DNA of 20,613 bases from Bacillota bacterium (GTDB taxonomy: Bacteria > Bacillota_A > Clostridia > Tissierellales > Peptoniphilaceae): positions 1-20,613 of the forward strand of contig JAEZZN010000097.1 of NCBI GenBank assembly GCA_023418535.1. Reading direction: 5' to 3'. Below, one piece after another: positions 4,628 to 18,810 of the stretch. Both the position numbers and the translations under genes were made by a program. Position 1 is the stretch's first letter. The number at the start of each line of letters is the position of its first letter. The notes under the pieces are model-generated. The model saw nothing but the letters and a program-made list of their open reading frames with translations. It did not search any database and had not been told where the DNA came from.

Positions 4628-4632
4628 ATAAG

Positions 4633-4672
4633 ATATCTGTTGGAATTTATATCCAGCAGATATTTTTATTTT
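4633..4672 (+). terminator. Terminator of the polA-coaE-lytic transglycosylase unit
   Basis: ATATCTGTTGGA (4633-4644) pairs with TCCAGCAGATAT (4652-4663), 12 bp with one G-U pair and a 7-nt loop, followed by TTTTATTTT. Confidence 0.88.
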
Positions 4673-4808: not shown

Positions 4809-6125
4809 ATGGTGTTTAAGAAAACATTTAAACAGGGTTATCATATTCCTGCACATAAGGAAATGAGCCGTGGAAATAAGTACATAGAAATGCCAACTCC
4901 AGATATAGTTAAGTTATCAATGTTACAACACATTGGTACTCCTGCAAATCCTATTGTTGACGTAGGAGATTATGTAAAAGTAGGTCAAAAGATAGGGGAA
5001 AAAGTTGGCGCTATTTCAGCAAATGTTCACTCAAGTGTATCAGGTAAGGTTATAAAAATTGAAAAAGCTCATACTACACGTGGGAATACAGTTTGTATAT
5101 TTATCGAAAATGATCATAAGGATGAATTAGCTTATGAGTTAATGAATAGAGACTATACAACAATGTCAAATGAGGAAATCATCAATATAATTGATGAGGC
5201 AGGTATTACTGGATTAGGTGGGGCATCATTCCCAACATCTGTAAAATTATCACCAAAAGAAGTGATAGAAGATGTAATTATAAATAGTGCAGAATGTGAG
5301 CCATATTTAACATCTGACGACACAATGATGAGAAATTTCTCAGAGGATATTGTAACAGGATTGAAAATTGAAATGAAAGTGGTAAATGCTAAAAGAGGTC
5401 ATATTTTAATTGAAGATGATAAAGCTCAAGCTATTAAAGCGATTAAAGAAGCTGTAAATAACGATCCAAACATATGCGTTGTTGTAGCTAAAGCTAAATA
5501 TCCACAAGGTGATGAAAAAAGAGTTATACAGGTTGCAACTGGGAAAGTTGTACCATTTGGACAATTACCATCAGCAGTTGGATGTATCGTATCAAATGCT
5601 ACAACTGCATATTCAATCACTCAAGCTGTAGTACATAATAAACCTTTATATGAAAGAATAGTGACATTTTCAGGAGAAGCAATGAAGGCAAAATTAAATG
5701 CTTTGGTAAGATTTGGAACTTCTGTATCATTTGCTATTGAACATATAGGTGGAATAGATGAAGGTGTATCTAAATTTATTTTAGGTGGTCCTATGATGGG
5801 ACTTGCATTAGAAGATTTTGAAATACCACTTGAAAAACCAACAAATGGTGTTTTAGCTCTTTCTTTAGAAGAAAGTGATTATCCAGAGCAAGAACCATGT
5901 ATCAAATGTGCGGCTTGTGTTGAAGCTTGTCCAGTGTATTTACAACCTTTTAATTTAGAGCAATTAATTAATAATGGTGAAATAATGGAAGCGAAAGCAA
6001 ATGACTTAATGGCATGTATTGATTGTGGATTGTGTTCATATGTTTGTCCATCACATATTCCTCTTGTTGAAACCTTTAGAGAAGGTAAGAGACAAGTAAG
6101 AGAACTACAGTTGAAAGATAAATAG
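4809..6125 (+). CDS. rnfC: Rnf complex subunit RnfC
   Basis: Cytoplasmic subunit that carries the NAD(H) site of Rnf. It shows the 51K-type flavin/nucleotide fold (GLGGASFP at 135-142 and INSAECEPYLTSDD), an SLBB-like region, and two complete ferredoxin-like 4Fe-4S motifs: Cys364/367/370 with Cys374, and Cys403/406/409 with Cys413. The N-terminal RnfC sandwich domain is seen in the first 110 residues. Length (438 aa) is normal for Gram-positive RnfC. No key residue appears lost, so NADH/NAD chemistry should be intact. It is the first gene of rnfC-D-G-E-A, the ribosome binding site AAAGGAG fixes the start, and rnfD begins 8 nt after its stop. In the usual complex it exchanges electrons with the flavin of RnfD. 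Confidence 0.96.
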   Translation: MVFKKTFKQGYHIPAHKEMSRGNKYIEMPTPDIVKLSMLQHIGTPANPIVDVGDYVKVGQKIGEKVGAISANVHSSVSGKVIKIEKAHTTRGNTVCIFIENDHKDELAYELMNRDYTTMSNEEIINIIDEAGITGLGGASFPTSVKLSPKEVIEDVIINSAECEPYLTSDDTMMRNFSEDIVTGLKIEMKVVNAKRGHILIEDDKAQAIKAIKEAVNNDPNICVVVAKAKYPQGDEKRVIQVATGKVVPFGQLPSAVGCIVSNATTAYSITQAVVHNKPLYERIVTFSGEAMKAKLNALVRFGTSVSFAIEHIGGIDEGVSKFILGGPMMGLALEDFEIPLEKPTNGVLALSLEESDYPEQEPCIKCAACVEACPVYLQPFNLEQLINNGEIMEAKANDLMACIDCGLCSYVCPSHIPLVETFREGKRQVRELQLKDK

Positions 6126-6133
6126 GAGGAGAT

Positions 6134-7054
6134 ATGAAAAAAAGATTAACATTATCAACTACACCTGCTCCTCATATTAGAACTCCAAAAAACACTCAAA
6201 CTATAATGCTTGATGTGATAATAGCAATGTTGCCAGCATTAGCAGCATCTATTTACTTTTTTGGAATAAGATCACTATTTTTAACTTTAGTTACAGTGGC
6301 AGCATGTGTATTGTCTGAATTCGCGATACAAAAAGCTCTTCATAAGAGAGTAAGAGTAAGAGATTTATCCGCAGTGGTAACAGGTATGTTACTTGCATTT
6401 AATTTACCAGTAGAATTTCCATTTTGGATGGCGATTATTGGTGGAATATTTGCAATCGTAGTAGTAAAAGAATTATTTGGTGGTATTGGTCAAAACTTTA
6501 TGAACCCAGCATTAGCTGCTAGAGTATTTTTAATGATTAACTGGCCGGCACAAATAGGTACATTTACATATGATGGCGTAGCAGGAGCTACACCACTTGG
6601 TGGAAGACCAACTTCATTAATGGATTTATTTATAGGTAATATACCTGGGACTATTGGTGAAGTTTCAAAACTAGCTATACTTTTAGGTCTATTATATATG
6701 TTATATAGACAAGTTATTAATTTAAGGATGCCAGTAATTTATGTGGCAACATCAGCAATATTATTCTACATATTGAAGTATGATTTGTATGATACACTAT
6801 ATCAAATATTATCAGGTGGTATTATTTTAGGTGCTGTATTTATGTTAACAGACTATTCATCATCACCAATGTCACCACAAGGGCAAATTGTGTATGCAAT
6901 AGGTGCAGCGATATTGACTGTAGTTATTAGACTATATGGAGGATATCCTGAAGGAGTATCTTTTGCGATCATTATAATGAATGTTTTAGTTCCTACAATT
7001 GATAAATATATTAGACCGCATGTATTTGGTGTAAAAGTGGGAGGCAATAAATGA
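6134..7054 (+). CDS. rnfD: Rnf complex subunit RnfD
   Basis: Polytopic membrane subunit, homologous to NqrB, that carries electrons through the membrane via covalently bound FMN and riboflavin. About ten hydrophobic segments are visible. The flavinylation motif AGATPL gives Thr153 as the FMN attachment site, and the conserved stretch GGIGQNFMNPALAARVFL is present. Length 306 aa is typical. The ribosome binding site AGGAGG (6125-6130) directly precedes the ATG. The stop overlaps the rnfG start (ATGA), implying translational coupling. Nothing in the sequence suggests loss of flavin sites, in contrast to the missing cluster ligands in RnfE and RnfA. FMN attachment would need an ApbE transferase, not encoded in this window. 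Confidence 0.96.
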   Translation: MKKRLTLSTTPAPHIRTPKNTQTIMLDVIIAMLPALAASIYFFGIRSLFLTLVTVAACVLSEFAIQKALHKRVRVRDLSAVVTGMLLAFNLPVEFPFWMAIIGGIFAIVVVKELFGGIGQNFMNPALAARVFLMINWPAQIGTFTYDGVAGATPLGGRPTSLMDLFIGNIPGTIGEVSKLAILLGLLYMLYRQVINLRMPVIYVATSAILFYILKYDLYDTLYQILSGGIILGAVFMLTDYSSSPMSPQGQIVYAIGAAILTVVIRLYGGYPEGVSFAIIIMNVLVPTIDKYIRPHVFGVKVGGNK

Positions 7055-8571
7055 AAAAGACTAGTTCAATAATTATTTTAATTTTATTAATTGCCTTAGG
7101 TATAGGATTAATATATGGAACAAGCAATTTTCTTGCGACCGTTGAAGAAAAAGAAGGCGGAGTAGTAAGTGAATATGCTTCAGTATATCCTGATGGAGTT
7201 GAATTTAATCCTATTGAAATTGAAACTGAAAATAATTTCAATAAGGTTTTAGAAGTCACAGATGGTTCAAATGTAATAGGTTATGTATTTGATGCTGTTA
7301 CAGCAGGGTATGGTGGAGACCTGAATTTTAGAATTGGAATTTCTAAAGAAGGAATAGTTCAAGGATTTCAACCATTAACACATAATGAAACTGAAGGATT
7401 TGGTAAGAAAATAGAAGAATCAGAATTTATTGATGGAGTTAAAGATGTAAATCTTTCTACAGGAAATGTAAATTTTGGAGAAGGAAACAAAGATAATGGT
7501 GAAATTGTAGCCATATCTGGAGCTACAATTACTACAAAAGCTATTACAGATGAACTAGTGAAAATAGTAAATGCTCTTTCTAAAATAGATGAAAATATTA
7601 AATCAGTAGAAAAAGAAATTCCATATTATGCAAATAAATGGCAAGAACTTTTCAAAAATGCACTTCATATATTTAGTTTTGAAGAATTAAAAGATGAAGA
7701 AATTTATAATGAAAACTTTAATAGAATTATAAGAGTAAAAGATAAAAATGGTGAACTAGATTCATACATATTACAATTATCAGAACAAGGATTTGGTGGT
7801 TCTATAAACTCTCTAGTTAGAGTCTCAAAAGATTATAGAATATTTAATATTGCATTTGGTGAATTTAATGAAACACCAAATTATGGTTCCTATGCTGATA
7901 CAGATGAATATAAAGAATTTGTGAAAGGAATTAATTTAGATAAGAATTTAATAACAAAATCAATTAAATTGCTTGAAAATCCAAAACATGAAAAAGATTT
8001 ATTATTAATTTCTGGAGCAACAGTAACATCAAAAGCATTGCAATCATCATTAAATGCGGCAATCCAAGGTTTAGTACAATTTGATAAGATAAAGAATGAT
8101 GATAATAAATATGAAGCTCTAGATGTTGATAAATTACTTGCTGAAAATAAGGAAGATAAAGATGTATCATTCGATCATTCAGGATTTGATGTAGAAGAAT
8201 CTACACCAATTGATGGTGGCAAAAATGATACAGTACTTCAAGTATCTGAAGCTAAAAAAGGTGGAGAGTCAGTAGGACATATATTTGATTTATCGACTTC
8301 CGGATTTGCTGGAAAAATTGAATTTGGTGTATATGTTGACAATGATGGAATTATAAAACAAATAGTTATTTATAATCATAATGAAACTGAAGGTTTTGGT
8401 AAAGGAATAGAAGAAGAATCATATCAAAAATCAGTAATTGGTAAAGATTTGAAATCTATTGACACTTTCAAAGCAGGTGATAATATAGATGCCATTTCAG
8501 GCGCAACAATCACAACTGATGCTATGATAAAAGCATTTAATGCATTATTAGAATCATACAAAGGTTTATAA
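7051..8571 (+). CDS. rnfG: RnfG-like subunit with three tandem FMN-binding domains
   Basis: RnfG carries covalent FMN on the outer face of the membrane. Ordinary RnfG has about 200 residues and one FMN-binding domain; this one has 506. One N-terminal membrane helix (7-30) is followed by three copies of the domain, each ending in the flavinylation motif SGATxT, with FMN acceptor threonines Thr159, Thr324 and Thr486. The motif spacing is nearly constant (165 and 162 residues). Domains 1 and 3 also keep the HNETEGFGK motif (7378-7410 and 8380-8404). Domain 2 has FNETPNYGSYA in that place and is more diverged. Linkers of about 50 acidic and lysine-rich residues separate the domains. The gene overlaps rnfD by 4 nt and lies 12 nt before rnfE. 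Expansion by internal duplication is inferred; function as an extended outward flavin relay is a hypothesis. Confidence 0.93.
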   Translation: MKKTSSIIILILLIALGIGLIYGTSNFLATVEEKEGGVVSEYASVYPDGVEFNPIEIETENNFNKVLEVTDGSNVIGYVFDAVTAGYGGDLNFRIGISKEGIVQGFQPLTHNETEGFGKKIEESEFIDGVKDVNLSTGNVNFGEGNKDNGEIVAISGATITTKAITDELVKIVNALSKIDENIKSVEKEIPYYANKWQELFKNALHIFSFEELKDEEIYNENFNRIIRVKDKNGELDSYILQLSEQGFGGSINSLVRVSKDYRIFNIAFGEFNETPNYGSYADTDEYKEFVKGINLDKNLITKSIKLLENPKHEKDLLLISGATVTSKALQSSLNAAIQGLVQFDKIKNDDNKYEALDVDKLLAENKEDKDVSFDHSGFDVEESTPIDGGKNDTVLQVSEAKKGGESVGHIFDLSTSGFAGKIEFGVYVDNDGIIKQIVIYNHNETEGFGKGIEEESYQKSVIGKDLKSIDTFKAGDNIDAISGATITTDAMIKAFNALLESYKGL

Positions 8572-8583
8572 TAGGGGGTTAAT

Positions 8584-9183
8584 ATGAAAAGAAAATTAGA
8601 TAATATTTTAGTTGATAATCCTGTATTAGTAAGAAGCTTTGGTTTTGTTTCAATACTTGCAGCAAGTACAACAGTAAAAGGTGCGCTATTAATGGCTTTA
8701 GCGGTTACAGCAATTATGATTGCAACAAGTTTAATAGTTTCGTTATTAAAAAATTTAATTGATGAAAAATTTGAAGATATTATATTATTAGTATTAATTG
8801 CTGCATTTTCAGTAGTTGTAACTATGCTTTTAGAGTTTTATTATCCAATAACAGTTCTAAAAATGGGAATATCAGTACCACTAATAGCAGTAAACTCCCT
8901 TCTGTTACATAGATTAAAATCTCATGCAATAGGTGAAGGAGTTGGAAGTGCTTTAGTGGGTGCTATTACAGACGGAATAGGATATTTATTAGTAATACTT
9001 GTAATGGGAGCTTTTAGAGAATTATTTGGAATGGGTACACTATTTGGAATAAGAATAATTCCACAAGAACTTACTATTCCTACATTTTCAACTCCAATAC
9101 TTGGATTTATAATTTTAGGTCTTTTGTTAGCATTTAGTAATTGGTATACAAGAAAGACAAAACTTGGGAGGGCTAGAAAATGA
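8584..9183 (+). CDS. rnfE: RnfE-like membrane subunit lacking cluster cysteines
   Basis: NqrD/RnfE family membrane protein with six hydrophobic helices (199 aa). With its partner RnfA this family normally holds an iron-sulfur cluster in mid-membrane through one Cys in a GLCP motif near the N-terminus and one in a later NC motif. Here these read GFVS (Val22) and VNSLLL (Ser105), and the protein contains no cysteine at all. The flanking family signatures are otherwise recognisable (DNPVLV, VPLIAVN, GAFRELFGMGTLFG). The usual GRAEAFA after the second Cys is HRLKSHA here, another departure. The ribosome binding site is AGGGGG; the stop overlaps the rnfA start. The fold and partner role are probably kept while electron transfer through a cluster is lost. 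Confidence 0.9.
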   Translation: MKRKLDNILVDNPVLVRSFGFVSILAASTTVKGALLMALAVTAIMIATSLIVSLLKNLIDEKFEDIILLVLIAAFSVVVTMLLEFYYPITVLKMGISVPLIAVNSLLLHRLKSHAIGEGVGSALVGAITDGIGYLLVILVMGAFRELFGMGTLFGIRIIPQELTIPTFSTPILGFIILGLLLAFSNWYTRKTKLGRARK

Positions 9184-9752
9184 TATTAATTCAAATAATT
9201 ATAGCAACTGTTTTAGTGAATAATTTGATTCTTAATCAATATATTGGAATCAATCCAACTATTGCAGCTTCAAAAAATCATGAATATACAATTACGATGA
9301 GCCTTGCAATAATGTTTTTAATGACAATATCAAGTCTTCTTACAAAATTGATCAATGATTATATTTTGTTACCTAATTCACTTGGAGATTTTAAAATATT
9401 TGCATTTGTAATTGTCATAGCTTTAGTGATATTTATCGCAAATATAGTATTAAAATCTATAATGAAAGAAAGATATACGAAGATGACAAATTTCATGCCT
9501 ATAGTAGTAATTAATAATCTATTTTTAGGTGTAGCTTTACTTGTGACTAAAGAAGGATTAAGTCTTGTTGAAACTATAGTATATTCTATAGGCGTATCAC
9601 TTGGGTTCATGCTAATTTCTATTATAGTATCATCAATTAATTACAAATATAGACAAGCAAATATGCCAAGACATTTTTTAGAAAAACCTATAACTCTATT
9701 AGCTTTAGGACTTATAGCACTAGCGTTTTACGGATTTTCTGGATTAGTATAA
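9180..9752 (+). CDS. rnfA: RnfA-like membrane subunit lacking cluster cysteines
   Basis: NqrE/RnfA family membrane protein, six helices, 190 aa, ending in the family's typical GFSGLV. The N-terminal VLVNN motif is conserved, but the following GLCP cysteine is Asn25 (IGINP). The second ligand, normally NC before a LGVALL-like motif, is Asn113 (NNLFLGVALL). No cysteine occurs anywhere in the protein. The rest aligns well with family members, so this is substitution at the ligand sites rather than decay of the gene. It overlaps rnfE by 4 nt and is the last gene of the operon: the terminator begins 7 nt after its stop. In most bacteria with the C-D-G-E-A order, rnfB comes next; here it does not. 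Confidence 0.92.
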   Translation: MILIQIIIATVLVNNLILNQYIGINPTIAASKNHEYTITMSLAIMFLMTISSLLTKLINDYILLPNSLGDFKIFAFVIVIALVIFIANIVLKSIMKERYTKMTNFMPIVVINNLFLGVALLVTKEGLSLVETIVYSIGVSLGFMLISIIVSSINYKYRQANMPRHFLEKPITLLALGLIALAFYGFSGLV

Positions 9753-9759
9753 AACACAT

Positions 9760-9787
9760 AAAGAGATGAGCAATCATCTCTTTTTAA
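9760..9787 (+). terminator. Terminator of the rnf operon
   Basis: AAAGAGATGA (9760-9769) pairs perfectly with TCATCTCTTT (9774-9783) around a GCAA tetraloop, with a T-run at the end. It closes the operon right after rnfA. Confidence 0.92.
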
Positions 9788-9810: not shown

Positions 9811-9855
9811 AAGATAATACACAAAAAATATGTCTATGTTTTAGAAGGAGAATTG

Positions 9856-10350
9856 ATGAAAAAAGAAAAAAATTTCAATAAACATGATATTAAAGATGAA
9901 AAAGATTTAATAAGAGAACAAATAAATAATAAAGATTCAGAAGTTGATGAAATCCCAACGTTAAATACATGGAGTATAATTTTATATTCATTTGGGTTAA
10001 CTTTTATAGAATTACTTACTTTTGACTTAGTAATTTCTGATATTAATATTTCACAATATAGGATGAATATAAGTTTAGGATATATAATTACGTTTATAAT
10101 AATATCTACAGTAACTGTTGTATATATGGCTGATAGATTCAAAGATTTTAGAGAAGGATTTATTGATTCAAAAGCAAATAAAATATTTATGATGATTGGT
10201 ATAGTTTCAACGATAATAATTGCAAATGTTTATTTATCAAAGACTTTATTTAGTATAAGTATTTTAACTGTAATAATTATTGCAGCACTTACATTTATAT
10301 CTGGTAGAATAATAGAAAAAAAAGATAAAGAAAAAAGAAATAATAAATAA
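9856..10350 (+). CDS. Uncharacterised four-helix membrane protein
   Basis: Not recognised. The 164-residue protein has a hydrophilic, charged N-terminus (about 1-40, Lys/Asp/Glu-rich, likely cytoplasmic), then four hydrophobic segments at roughly 43-65, 74-95, 113-131 and 137-155, and a short basic tail (KKDKEKRNNK). It has no cysteine and no motif I can name, so it is not a displaced RnfB. ATG 9856 is preferred over an in-frame TTG at 9853 because the ribosome binding site AGAAGGAG (9843-9850) leaves 5 nt before the ATG. It is flanked by the rnf terminator and its own terminator, so it is probably transcribed alone. Any link with the Rnf complex rests only on proximity. Confidence 0.8.
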   Translation: MKKEKNFNKHDIKDEKDLIREQINNKDSEVDEIPTLNTWSIILYSFGLTFIELLTFDLVISDINISQYRMNISLGYIITFIIISTVTVVYMADRFKDFREGFIDSKANKIFMMIGIVSTIIIANVYLSKTLFSISILTVIIIAALTFISGRIIEKKDKEKRNNK

Positions 10351-18277: not shown

Positions 18278-18315
18278 ATGATATGTTTATAAGCAAAGAT
18301 TTAAGAGAGGAAAAT

Positions 18316-18810
18316 ATGAAGAAAAAATTAATAGTTTTATTAGGAGCAATCGTATTTTTAGTTGCTTGTAATAAAAATGTTGAAACAGAAAAAGAAACAG
18401 TTCAAGAAACTGTAAAGGAAACAATTCAAGAAACACAAAAAGAAACCGAAACAGAAACTGAAGAAGAAACAGAAAAAGAAACAGAAAAAGAAACAGTTCA
18501 AGAAACTGAGAAAGAAACACAATCAGAAACTGATTTTGAAAATCCAATACCTGATCAATTTACAATTGATGATTTTGAAAATAAAGAAGATTATATTATA
18601 TATAAATTAAAACCAATTACAAATATAAAAAACTTATCAGTTTTAGCTACTGGTAATGAAATAAATATAAATGGAATTTTAGCAGAAGAATACCAAGTAT
18701 ATGAAGATAATTCAGGACACATAGTAACACATGGTTATTATGCGGTAGATAATGCAGGTGTTATTTATGAAAATGATATAATCACAAATCAATGGATTGA
18801 AATTGAATAA
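18316..18810 (+). CDS. Lipoprotein with Glu/Thr repeat stalk, unknown function
   Basis: Not recognised. ATG 18316 follows the ribosome binding site AGAGAGG and starts a type II signal peptide: KKK, a hydrophobic core, then the lipobox LVAC, with lipidation expected at Cys18. Residues 23-73 are a low-complexity stretch built of ETxKET/ETVQET units, strongly acidic and without hydrophobic residues except Val/Ile, so probably an extended spacer that lifts the distal domain off the membrane. Residues 75-164 form a mixed hydrophilic domain (ending HGYYAVDNAGVIYENDIITNQWIEIE) likely to be beta-rich; it has no cysteine and no motif I can name. 164 aa. An upstream in-frame ATG at 18283 lacks a ribosome binding site and would bury the signal peptide. 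Transcribed alone, between its promoter and a terminator. Confidence 0.85.
   Translation: MKKKLIVLLGAIVFLVACNKNVETEKETVQETVKETIQETQKETETETEEETEKETEKETVQETEKETQSETDFENPIPDQFTIDDFENKEDYIIYKLKPITNIKNLSVLATGNEININGILAEEYQVYEDNSGHIVTHGYYAVDNAGVIYENDIITNQWIEIE
18382..18537 (+). repeat. In-frame GAAACA-type tandem repeats in the lipoprotein gene
   Basis: Degenerate 6-bp units (GAAACA, GAAAAA, GAAACT) run through the stalk-coding part. A 31-bp stretch at 18382-18412 recurs without change at 18478-18508, 96 bp apart (32 codons). Since units are multiples of 3, slippage or recombination would alter stalk length without breaking the frame. Confidence 0.85.

Follow-up and report, generated by a model that had tools for sequence, protein, structure and literature searches.

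We found that the rnfC-rnfD-rnfG-rnfE-rnfA operon, five intact and tightly packed open reading frames (ORFs) at positions 4809-9752 (+) of a 20,613-nucleotide stretch of Peptoniphilaceae DNA (contig JAEZZN010000097.1 of assembly GCA_023418535.1; the whole stretch is here called the window), probably encodes an Rnf complex pared down to the half that takes up NADH. In this complex electrons would pass from NADH through RnfC, RnfD and the flavins of RnfG to an external acceptor, with RnfA and RnfE serving as scaffold. Judged from sequence, the probability of this reading is roughly 0.68; within it, the acceptor, the direction of flow and the absence of pumping are what we infer. The closest named RnfA is that of Helcococcus sueciensis DSM 17243 (97% identical), and the operon belongs to a Helcococcus near H. 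sueciensis. The complex is by descent an Rnf, but the lack of RnfB and of the 2Fe-2S cluster held between RnfA and RnfE (AE1), both of them tested, sets it apart from ferredoxin:NAD+ Rnf complexes, and ferredoxin:NAD+ activity with ion transport is predicted to be absent. The parts listed in an initial annotation (RnfC, RnfD with T153, a three-domain RnfG, Cys-less RnfA and RnfE, and no rnfB) were all borne out in their places. Its central proposal, that the ferredoxin branch was lost and the branch from NADH to outer flavins kept, is well supported and gained strength from the loss of pyruvate:ferredoxin oxidoreductase (PFOR) and FeFe hydrogenase and from selective relaxation of RnfA/E.

At the level of domains and cysteines, RnfC carries what marks the subunit in an Rnf, i.e., an NADH/FMN fold and two 4Fe-4S clusters: it matched NCBIfam TIGR01945 at 483.6 bits (cut-off 245.95; E 4e-145), and its cysteine sets C364/367/370/374 and C403/406/409/413 correspond to two 4Fe-4S sites with columns invariant across genera. 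RnfD matched TIGR01946 above the cut-off (309.5 bits; E 3e-92) and PF03116 alone, with no PF00175 fusion. In RnfD of Acetobacterium woodii, T156 carries FMN while N123 and D249 are riboflavin residues (PMC11889175; this and the other papers are cited from excerpts). Alignment with chain D of 9ERI and 7ZC6 placed T153 of the window opposite the flavinylated T156, N124 opposite N123 and D240 opposite D249, i.e., both the covalent-FMN Thr and the riboflavin Asn and Asp of an Rnf are kept.

On the other hand, the ferredoxin side was missing. No rnfB was found in the window, and tblastn with four RnfB proteins of the family against four Helcococcus loci found no rnfB remnant 3' of rnfA, returning only the Fe-S part of rnfC plus matches at E 0.86 or more. 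Nor was rnfB matched in any of three Helcococcus genomes (99-100% complete), and to judge from these congeners it is probably absent from the window's own genome. In an even sample of the family, 116 of 120 genomes had an rnfB match over the cut-off; the rest were the three Helcococcus and G073 (73% complete), which had a sub-threshold rnfB match and whose best RnfA-type match lay in the score range of second, NqrE-like matches. Moreover RnfE and RnfA matched NCBIfam models below cut-off only (102 bits against 213 and 133 bits against 229, respectively). The AE1 ligands of A. woodii are C25 and C113 of RnfA and C25 and C108 of RnfE (PMC11889175); at these positions the window has N25 and N113 in RnfA and V22 and S105 in RnfE, i.e., none of the four 2Fe-2S cysteines of an Rnf, and its RnfG, RnfE and RnfA contain no cysteine at all. 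The four losses recurred in three congeneric genomes and in the Cys-less homologues listed, and thus are not due to chance. A. woodii Rnf variants without the AE1 cysteines had no ferredoxin:NAD+ activity (PMC11889175).

Homologue searches with RnfA and RnfE scored 7996 and 7998 candidates, respectively, that shared most words with the query, and the best 120 of each were listed. Among these matches, both cysteines were missing from 21 RnfA and present in 99, while for RnfE the numbers were 26 and 94. Cys-less proteins thus number at least 21 for RnfA and at least 26 for RnfE, and the named ones among the Cys-less matches listed were all Helcococcus (H. ovis, H. bovis, H. kunzii, Helcococcus sp. 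and uncultured Helcococcus). No second origin of Cys-less RnfA was found among the 120 matches listed, the 21st (P0023) looking by eye closest to H. kunzii; a scan of genome contigs with RnfA identified one locus, that of H. sueciensis. All four AE1 cysteines were kept in the nine Cys-containing genera aligned. These counts were taken from alignments. A simple-pattern check of 20 loci was less complete: in the 17 non-Helcococcus loci all positions that it picked up were Cys, but it never picked up the second RnfA position and overlooked some of the rest. As read from these alignments and searches, Cys-less RnfA/E together with rnfB loss is a trait of the genus Helcococcus.

RnfG scored 171 bits against NCBIfam (cut-off 102) and contains a hydrophobic stretch within residues 1-31 and three PF04205 FMN_bind stretches. 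The covalent-FMN motif SGAT is found in all three domains, at T159, T324 and T486 (positions read on the 96% relative P0121; the window has the same motifs), and domain 1 keeps both the Tyr and the Thr of the A. woodii FMN site. Foldseek grouped RnfG with RnfG/NqrC chains; in the structure model (mean predicted local distance difference test score (pLDDT) 83.6, predicted template modelling score 0.50) the domains were confident, and their mutual placement was not. With its three domains, N-terminal helix and predicted export and flavinylation, RnfG fits the multi-flavinylated, extracytoplasmic class. RnfG of H. kunzii carries four SGAT motifs, with domains 3 and 4 both in the domain-3 group. 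Separately, the FMN subunits at L075 6957-7532 (G064), L018 6617-7180 (G017) and L076 6775-7383 (the NQR of G044) had no match to the simple [ST]GA[ST] pattern.

Whether RnfA/E remained an ion channel or only a scaffold had been left open by the initial annotation, and the evidence now leans toward scaffold. Ion-pair residues of RnfA/E that belong to the A. woodii sodium route have changed: RnfE R67 was replaced by E in 28 and by K in one of 29 Cys-less proteins, and E115 was lost in all 29; RnfA E88 and Q85 were replaced in 24 of 24; and no Cys ligand for the cluster was found in any of these 24 RnfA and 29 RnfE proteins. RnfA is predicted to have retained its fold, the model being of moderate confidence (mean pLDDT 69.8). 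In the window, RnfE has E in place of R67 and K in place of E115, which suggested a charge-swapped ion pair; this idea was rejected, since Q stands at 115 in 17 of the 29 Cys-less proteins. The p-distance ratio (A+E)/(C+D) was 1.63-2.12 in three Helcococcus pairs versus 0.71-0.89 in 36 pairs of nine Cys-containing genera; among the 12 genomes compared, faster divergence of RnfA/E than of RnfC/D was confined to Helcococcus. The NQR paralogues of two Helcococcus genomes were 79 and 85% identical for NqrD and NqrE (cysteines intact), 67% for NqrB, 50% for NqrC and 75% for NqrF. Between the window and H. sueciensis, the ratio of nonsynonymous to synonymous substitution rates (dN/dS; YN00) was 0.035 for C, 0.007 for D, 0.074 for G, 0.098 for E and 0.078 for A.

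The losses and the enlargement of RnfG had been attributed to a single evolutionary switch, a view that did not hold. In a tree of RnfC plus RnfD (12 genomes, midpoint root), Helcococcus formed one clade (100/100), which was grouped with G014 and G044 (100/100). Both of the latter have a triple-domain RnfG alongside RnfB and all four AE1 cysteines; therefore RnfG was enlarged first and the ferredoxin branch was lost later. In the tree of RnfG domains (28 domains cut by motif pattern from 12 of 13 RnfG proteins; G033 yielded none and was dropped), domains 1, 2 and 3 each grouped across Helcococcus and G014/G044 (100/99, 99/99 and 99/96, respectively). Multi-flavinylated RNF clusters are known, and a side path to outer acceptors has been proposed for them (PMC8238504).

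The metabolic context was compared in seven genomes, out of more than 130, for each of two enzymes: PFOR (TIGR02176) had no match in the three Helcococcus and was over the cut-off in all four comparison genera, and FeFe hydrogenase (PF02906) likewise had no match in the three and was found in the four. Thus two main ferredoxin-linked enzymes appear to have been lost together with RnfB and the RnfA/E cluster. Pyruvate formate-lyase was present in all three Helcococcus and in G014, G044 and G033, and not in G012 and G064, while ApbE had two matches in each of the three Helcococcus genomes. A UbiA-type prenyltransferase was found in none of seven relatives of the window, with all 14 controls positive, which counts against quinone feeding the outer flavins. 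Descriptions of H. ovis and of strains named H. bovis class them as facultative anaerobes, isolates having been grown in air with CO2 (PMC11420031); two other members of the family are classed as obligate anaerobes (PMC9302094). We conjecture that oxygen tolerance drove the loss of the ferredoxin branch. At about even odds, the complex would be a pump-, quinone- and haem-free flavin wire from NADH to the cell surface, which arose on leaving ferredoxin metabolism (PFOR, hydrogenase, RnfB and AE1 lost) as the lineage became oxygen-tolerant. The midpoint potential of NADH is -320 mV. That of a triple-FMN protein from elsewhere, whose reduced form reacts with oxygen, is -184 mV (PMC10339131), so that electron flow from NADH would be downhill.

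Candidate acceptors were sought among FMN_bind proteins other than RnfG and NqrC, since extracytoplasmic flavoproteins had been expected to co-occur with the operon; two of the three Helcococcus genomes have such proteins. G001 encodes one (L037) that is lipoprotein-like by its N-terminus and has two FMN_bind domains. G002 encodes a similar lipoprotein-like protein (L039) with one FMN_bind domain and a 620-aa lipoprotein-like flavoenzyme (L038 7378-9240) with FMN_bind plus FAD_binding_2, possibly an extracytoplasmic reductase fed by the complex. The third genome (G003) has none. A fixed outer partner was rejected, as the full-length FAD_binding_2 flavoenzyme occurs in one of the three genomes and extra FMN_bind proteins in two. 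The window itself holds a lipoprotein-like ORF (18283-18810) whose signal is followed by a long stretch of repeats rich in E, T and K, similar to the stalks seen in the L037 and L039 lipoprotein-like proteins with FMN_bind domains.

In the mechanism that we propose, cytoplasmic NADH would deliver two electrons to the FMN of RnfC, from which they would pass singly via the two RnfC 4Fe-4S clusters to the riboflavin and covalent FMN of RnfD. From RnfD they would move to FMN 1 of RnfG, hop along FMN 2 and 3 and leave the complex; the acceptor outside could be oxygen, Fe(III), soluble flavin, a flavolipoprotein or a flavoenzyme resembling fumarate reductase. RnfA/E would serve as a support in the membrane for RnfD and the helix of RnfG, with no electron transport and most likely no ion pumping. 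The gain would be NAD+ regeneration in an oxygen-tolerant, PFOR-less fermenter without UbiA-route quinone.

Several observations weigh against an NADH half with scaffold RnfA/E: i) the interpretation is based on sequence, which does not tell which way the electrons flow; ii) N112 of RnfA (24/24) and L103, V106 and N107 of RnfE, all of the sodium route, are kept, and by dN/dS RnfA/E are still under purifying selection; iii) RnfG domains 2 and 3 keep the Thr but show Phe in place of the Tyr of the A. woodii FMN site, and RnfG of G003 has two FMN domains only; iv) G003 is without any FMN_bind protein beyond RnfG and NqrC, and no obligate acceptor was seen; v) in two of the three Helcococcus genomes an nqrBCDEF cluster is present, and its NqrF-NqrD/E-NqrC branch might on its own carry electrons from NADH to the outside.

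Such nqrBCDEF clusters (of Na+-NQR, the sodium-pumping NADH:quinone oxidoreductase) lie in L016 6410-10295 (G001), L017 (G003), L019 (G017) and L076 (G044), NCBIfam having been run on the L016 set. Beside nqrB no nqrA was recognised in these four, nqrA elsewhere in the genomes not being searched for; in G001, G003 and G044 the NqrA-less NQR coincides with no UbiA match. A 2-oxoacid dehydrogenase acyltransferase-like protein is encoded 5' of the G001 cluster.

Of the competing explanations, the one with the most in its favor, though unlikely, keeps the same electron path and lets outward flow still pump Na+ via RnfD, driven by RnfG movement and with RnfA/E as part of the gate. The ion route is disputed among models, which place it in RnfD (Clostridium tetanomorphum), NqrB (Vibrio cholerae) or RnfA/E (A. 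woodii) (PMC12174285), and among the five subunits dN/dS is lowest for RnfD. However, A. woodii mutants put transport in RnfA/E and not RnfD (PMC11889175), the Cys-less RnfA/E have substitutions at several positions of that route, and net outward electron flow would itself presumably dissipate membrane potential. We consider it improbable that flow is inward, with an external donor reducing RnfG and then NAD+ through RnfD and RnfC. The chain is reversible and the forward direction of canonical Rnf runs from RnfG to RnfC (PMC11889175), but a multi-FMN protein at -184 mV (PMC10339131) would reduce NAD+ uphill, and a fermenter using pyruvate formate-lyase would rather need NAD+ regeneration.

The complex might still use ferredoxin if RnfB had been replaced by a subunit that is borrowed (NqrF, for instance) or not recognised, which would feed RnfA/E; two of the three Helcococcus genomes do have an nqrF-like gene. 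This is nevertheless very improbable: none of the 24 RnfA and 29 RnfE Cys-less proteins offers a Cys ligand for the cluster, G002 has no second RnfA/NqrE-type match and hence no NQR set was found there, and matches to rnfB, PFOR and hydrogenase are all missing in the three genomes. Least probable, and in large part refuted, is a decaying relic operon without function. One subunit and one cluster have been lost and RnfA/E change faster, as a relic would have it, but all five ORFs are intact in the four loci compared (window, L013, L014 and L015), dN/dS over the five subunits is 0.007-0.098 (YN00) or 0.028-0.253 (NG86), cofactor residues are conserved, and H. kunzii has even an extra RnfG domain.

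Canonical Rnf (A. woodii 9ERI, C. tetanomorphum 7ZC6 and Azotobacter vinelandii 8AHX) has homologous C, D, G, E and A in the same order and, across C, D and G, the same sites for 4Fe-4S clusters, riboflavin and covalent FMN as the Helcococcus complex. The latter lacks RnfB, the AE1 cysteines and the RnfE R67/E115 pair, and within the genus its RnfG varies between two and four FMN domains. Canonical Rnf complexes whose RnfG is multi-flavinylated (PMC8238504; G014 and G044) have the triple-domain RnfG in common with it, but G014 and G044 keep RnfB and the cysteines; in the excerpts of PMC8238504, an RNF system was counted only where RnfB was present. Na+-NQR has homologous core subunits in common with the complex, but the operon contains no nqrF-like gene and its RnfC keeps the cluster cysteines. 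An origin of NQR after rnfB loss, with decay of the RnfC cofactors, has been proposed (PMC4014512). In NQR the cluster of the RnfA/E type survived, whereas the cofactors of RnfC disappeared (NqrA) and NqrF was gained, so that the Helcococcus Rnf is its mirror image and would represent a second, opposite fate after rnfB loss. Two-subunit NQR/RNF-like systems, in which electrons are likewise proposed to run one way, starting at NAD(P)H and ending at an FMN domain on the outside, fuse an NqrB/RnfD-like protein to an NqrF-like NAD domain and have no RnfD flavinylation site (PMC8238504, PMC10979944), while Helcococcus kept RnfC, RnfE and RnfA with the RnfD site intact. By analogy, the Helcococcus complex may work most like these systems, with a different NADH module and a full membrane core. 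The flavin-based extracellular electron transfer of Gram-positive bacteria (Listeria type) relies on outer proteins flavinylated by ApbE, to which the FMN_bind lipoprotein-like proteins of two of the three Helcococcus genomes may be compared. The Listeria type uses quinone, whereas the UbiA-type prenyltransferase was not found in Helcococcus or the other genomes searched.

Rnf is considered an ancient respiratory enzyme, and there is disagreement on whether its ions pass through RnfA/E or RnfD (PMC12174285, PMC11889175). A natural complex that lacks the RnfA/E cluster and ion-pair residues while its RnfC-RnfD-RnfG chain is under selection makes this dispute testable, and raises the question of whether Na+ is moved by NADH-driven flow through RnfD alone. 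If our interpretation is true, the complex would serve as a naturally uncoupled control for the site of Rnf sodium pumping, and would provide fermenting Gram-positive cocci with an electron exit free of quinone and cytochrome. In the portions of open-licence PubMed Central literature covered, we recognised no description of an Rnf lacking RnfB as well as the RnfA/E cysteines, and the sole co-mention of Helcococcus and Rnf concerned Cas12a.

Features of the rnf operon and its flanks (window coordinates)
Feature	Position	Strand	Description
Terminator-like hairpin	4630..4666	+	5' of rnfC
rnfC	4809..6125	+	438 aa, NADH/FMN-binding subunit; TIGR01945, Pfam Complex1_51K + RnfC_N
Two 4Fe-4S cysteine sets of RnfC	5898..6047	+	C364-C374, C403-C413
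rnfD	6134..7054	+	306 aa, membrane flavin subunit; TIGR01946
rnfG	7051..8571	+	506 aa, N-terminal membrane helix + three FMN_bind domains; PF04205
RnfG FMN domain 1 (T159), canonical	7198..7590	+	Motif + domain tree; boundaries approximate
RnfG FMN domain 2 (T324), added	7663..8085	+	Motif + domain tree; boundaries approximate
RnfG FMN domain 3 (T486), added	8182..8568	+	Motif + domain tree; boundaries approximate
rnfE	8584..9183	+	199 aa, Cys-less; V22/S105 at cluster positions, E64/K112 at R67/E115 positions
rnfA	9180..9752	+	190 aa, Cys-less; N25/N113 at cluster positions
Terminator-like hairpin	9760..9783	+	Directly 3' of rnfA, at the place of rnfB in relatives

The ORFs overlap or nearly adjoin and lie between the hairpins at 4630-4666 and 9760-9783, thus delimiting a five-gene operon. 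Five terminator-like hairpins were counted in the region (the one at 9760-9783 on both strands) versus a mean of 0.8 in shuffles, while a promoter scan of the region was uninformative (48 found versus 45.5 in shuffles). A lytic-transglycosylase-like gene lies 5' of rnfC, and further upstream are what we take, from their sequences, to be polA and coaE, with presumed nrdDG downstream; the arrangement polA-coaE-SLT-rnf is shared with several Peptoniphilaceae genomes. Past the rnf terminator, 3' of rnfA, is a small membrane ORF (9853-10350; 155-165 aa depending on the start codon) with no Pfam or NCBIfam match; none was seen in the G003 locus, and same-place relatives are present in G001 (96%) and G002 (41%).

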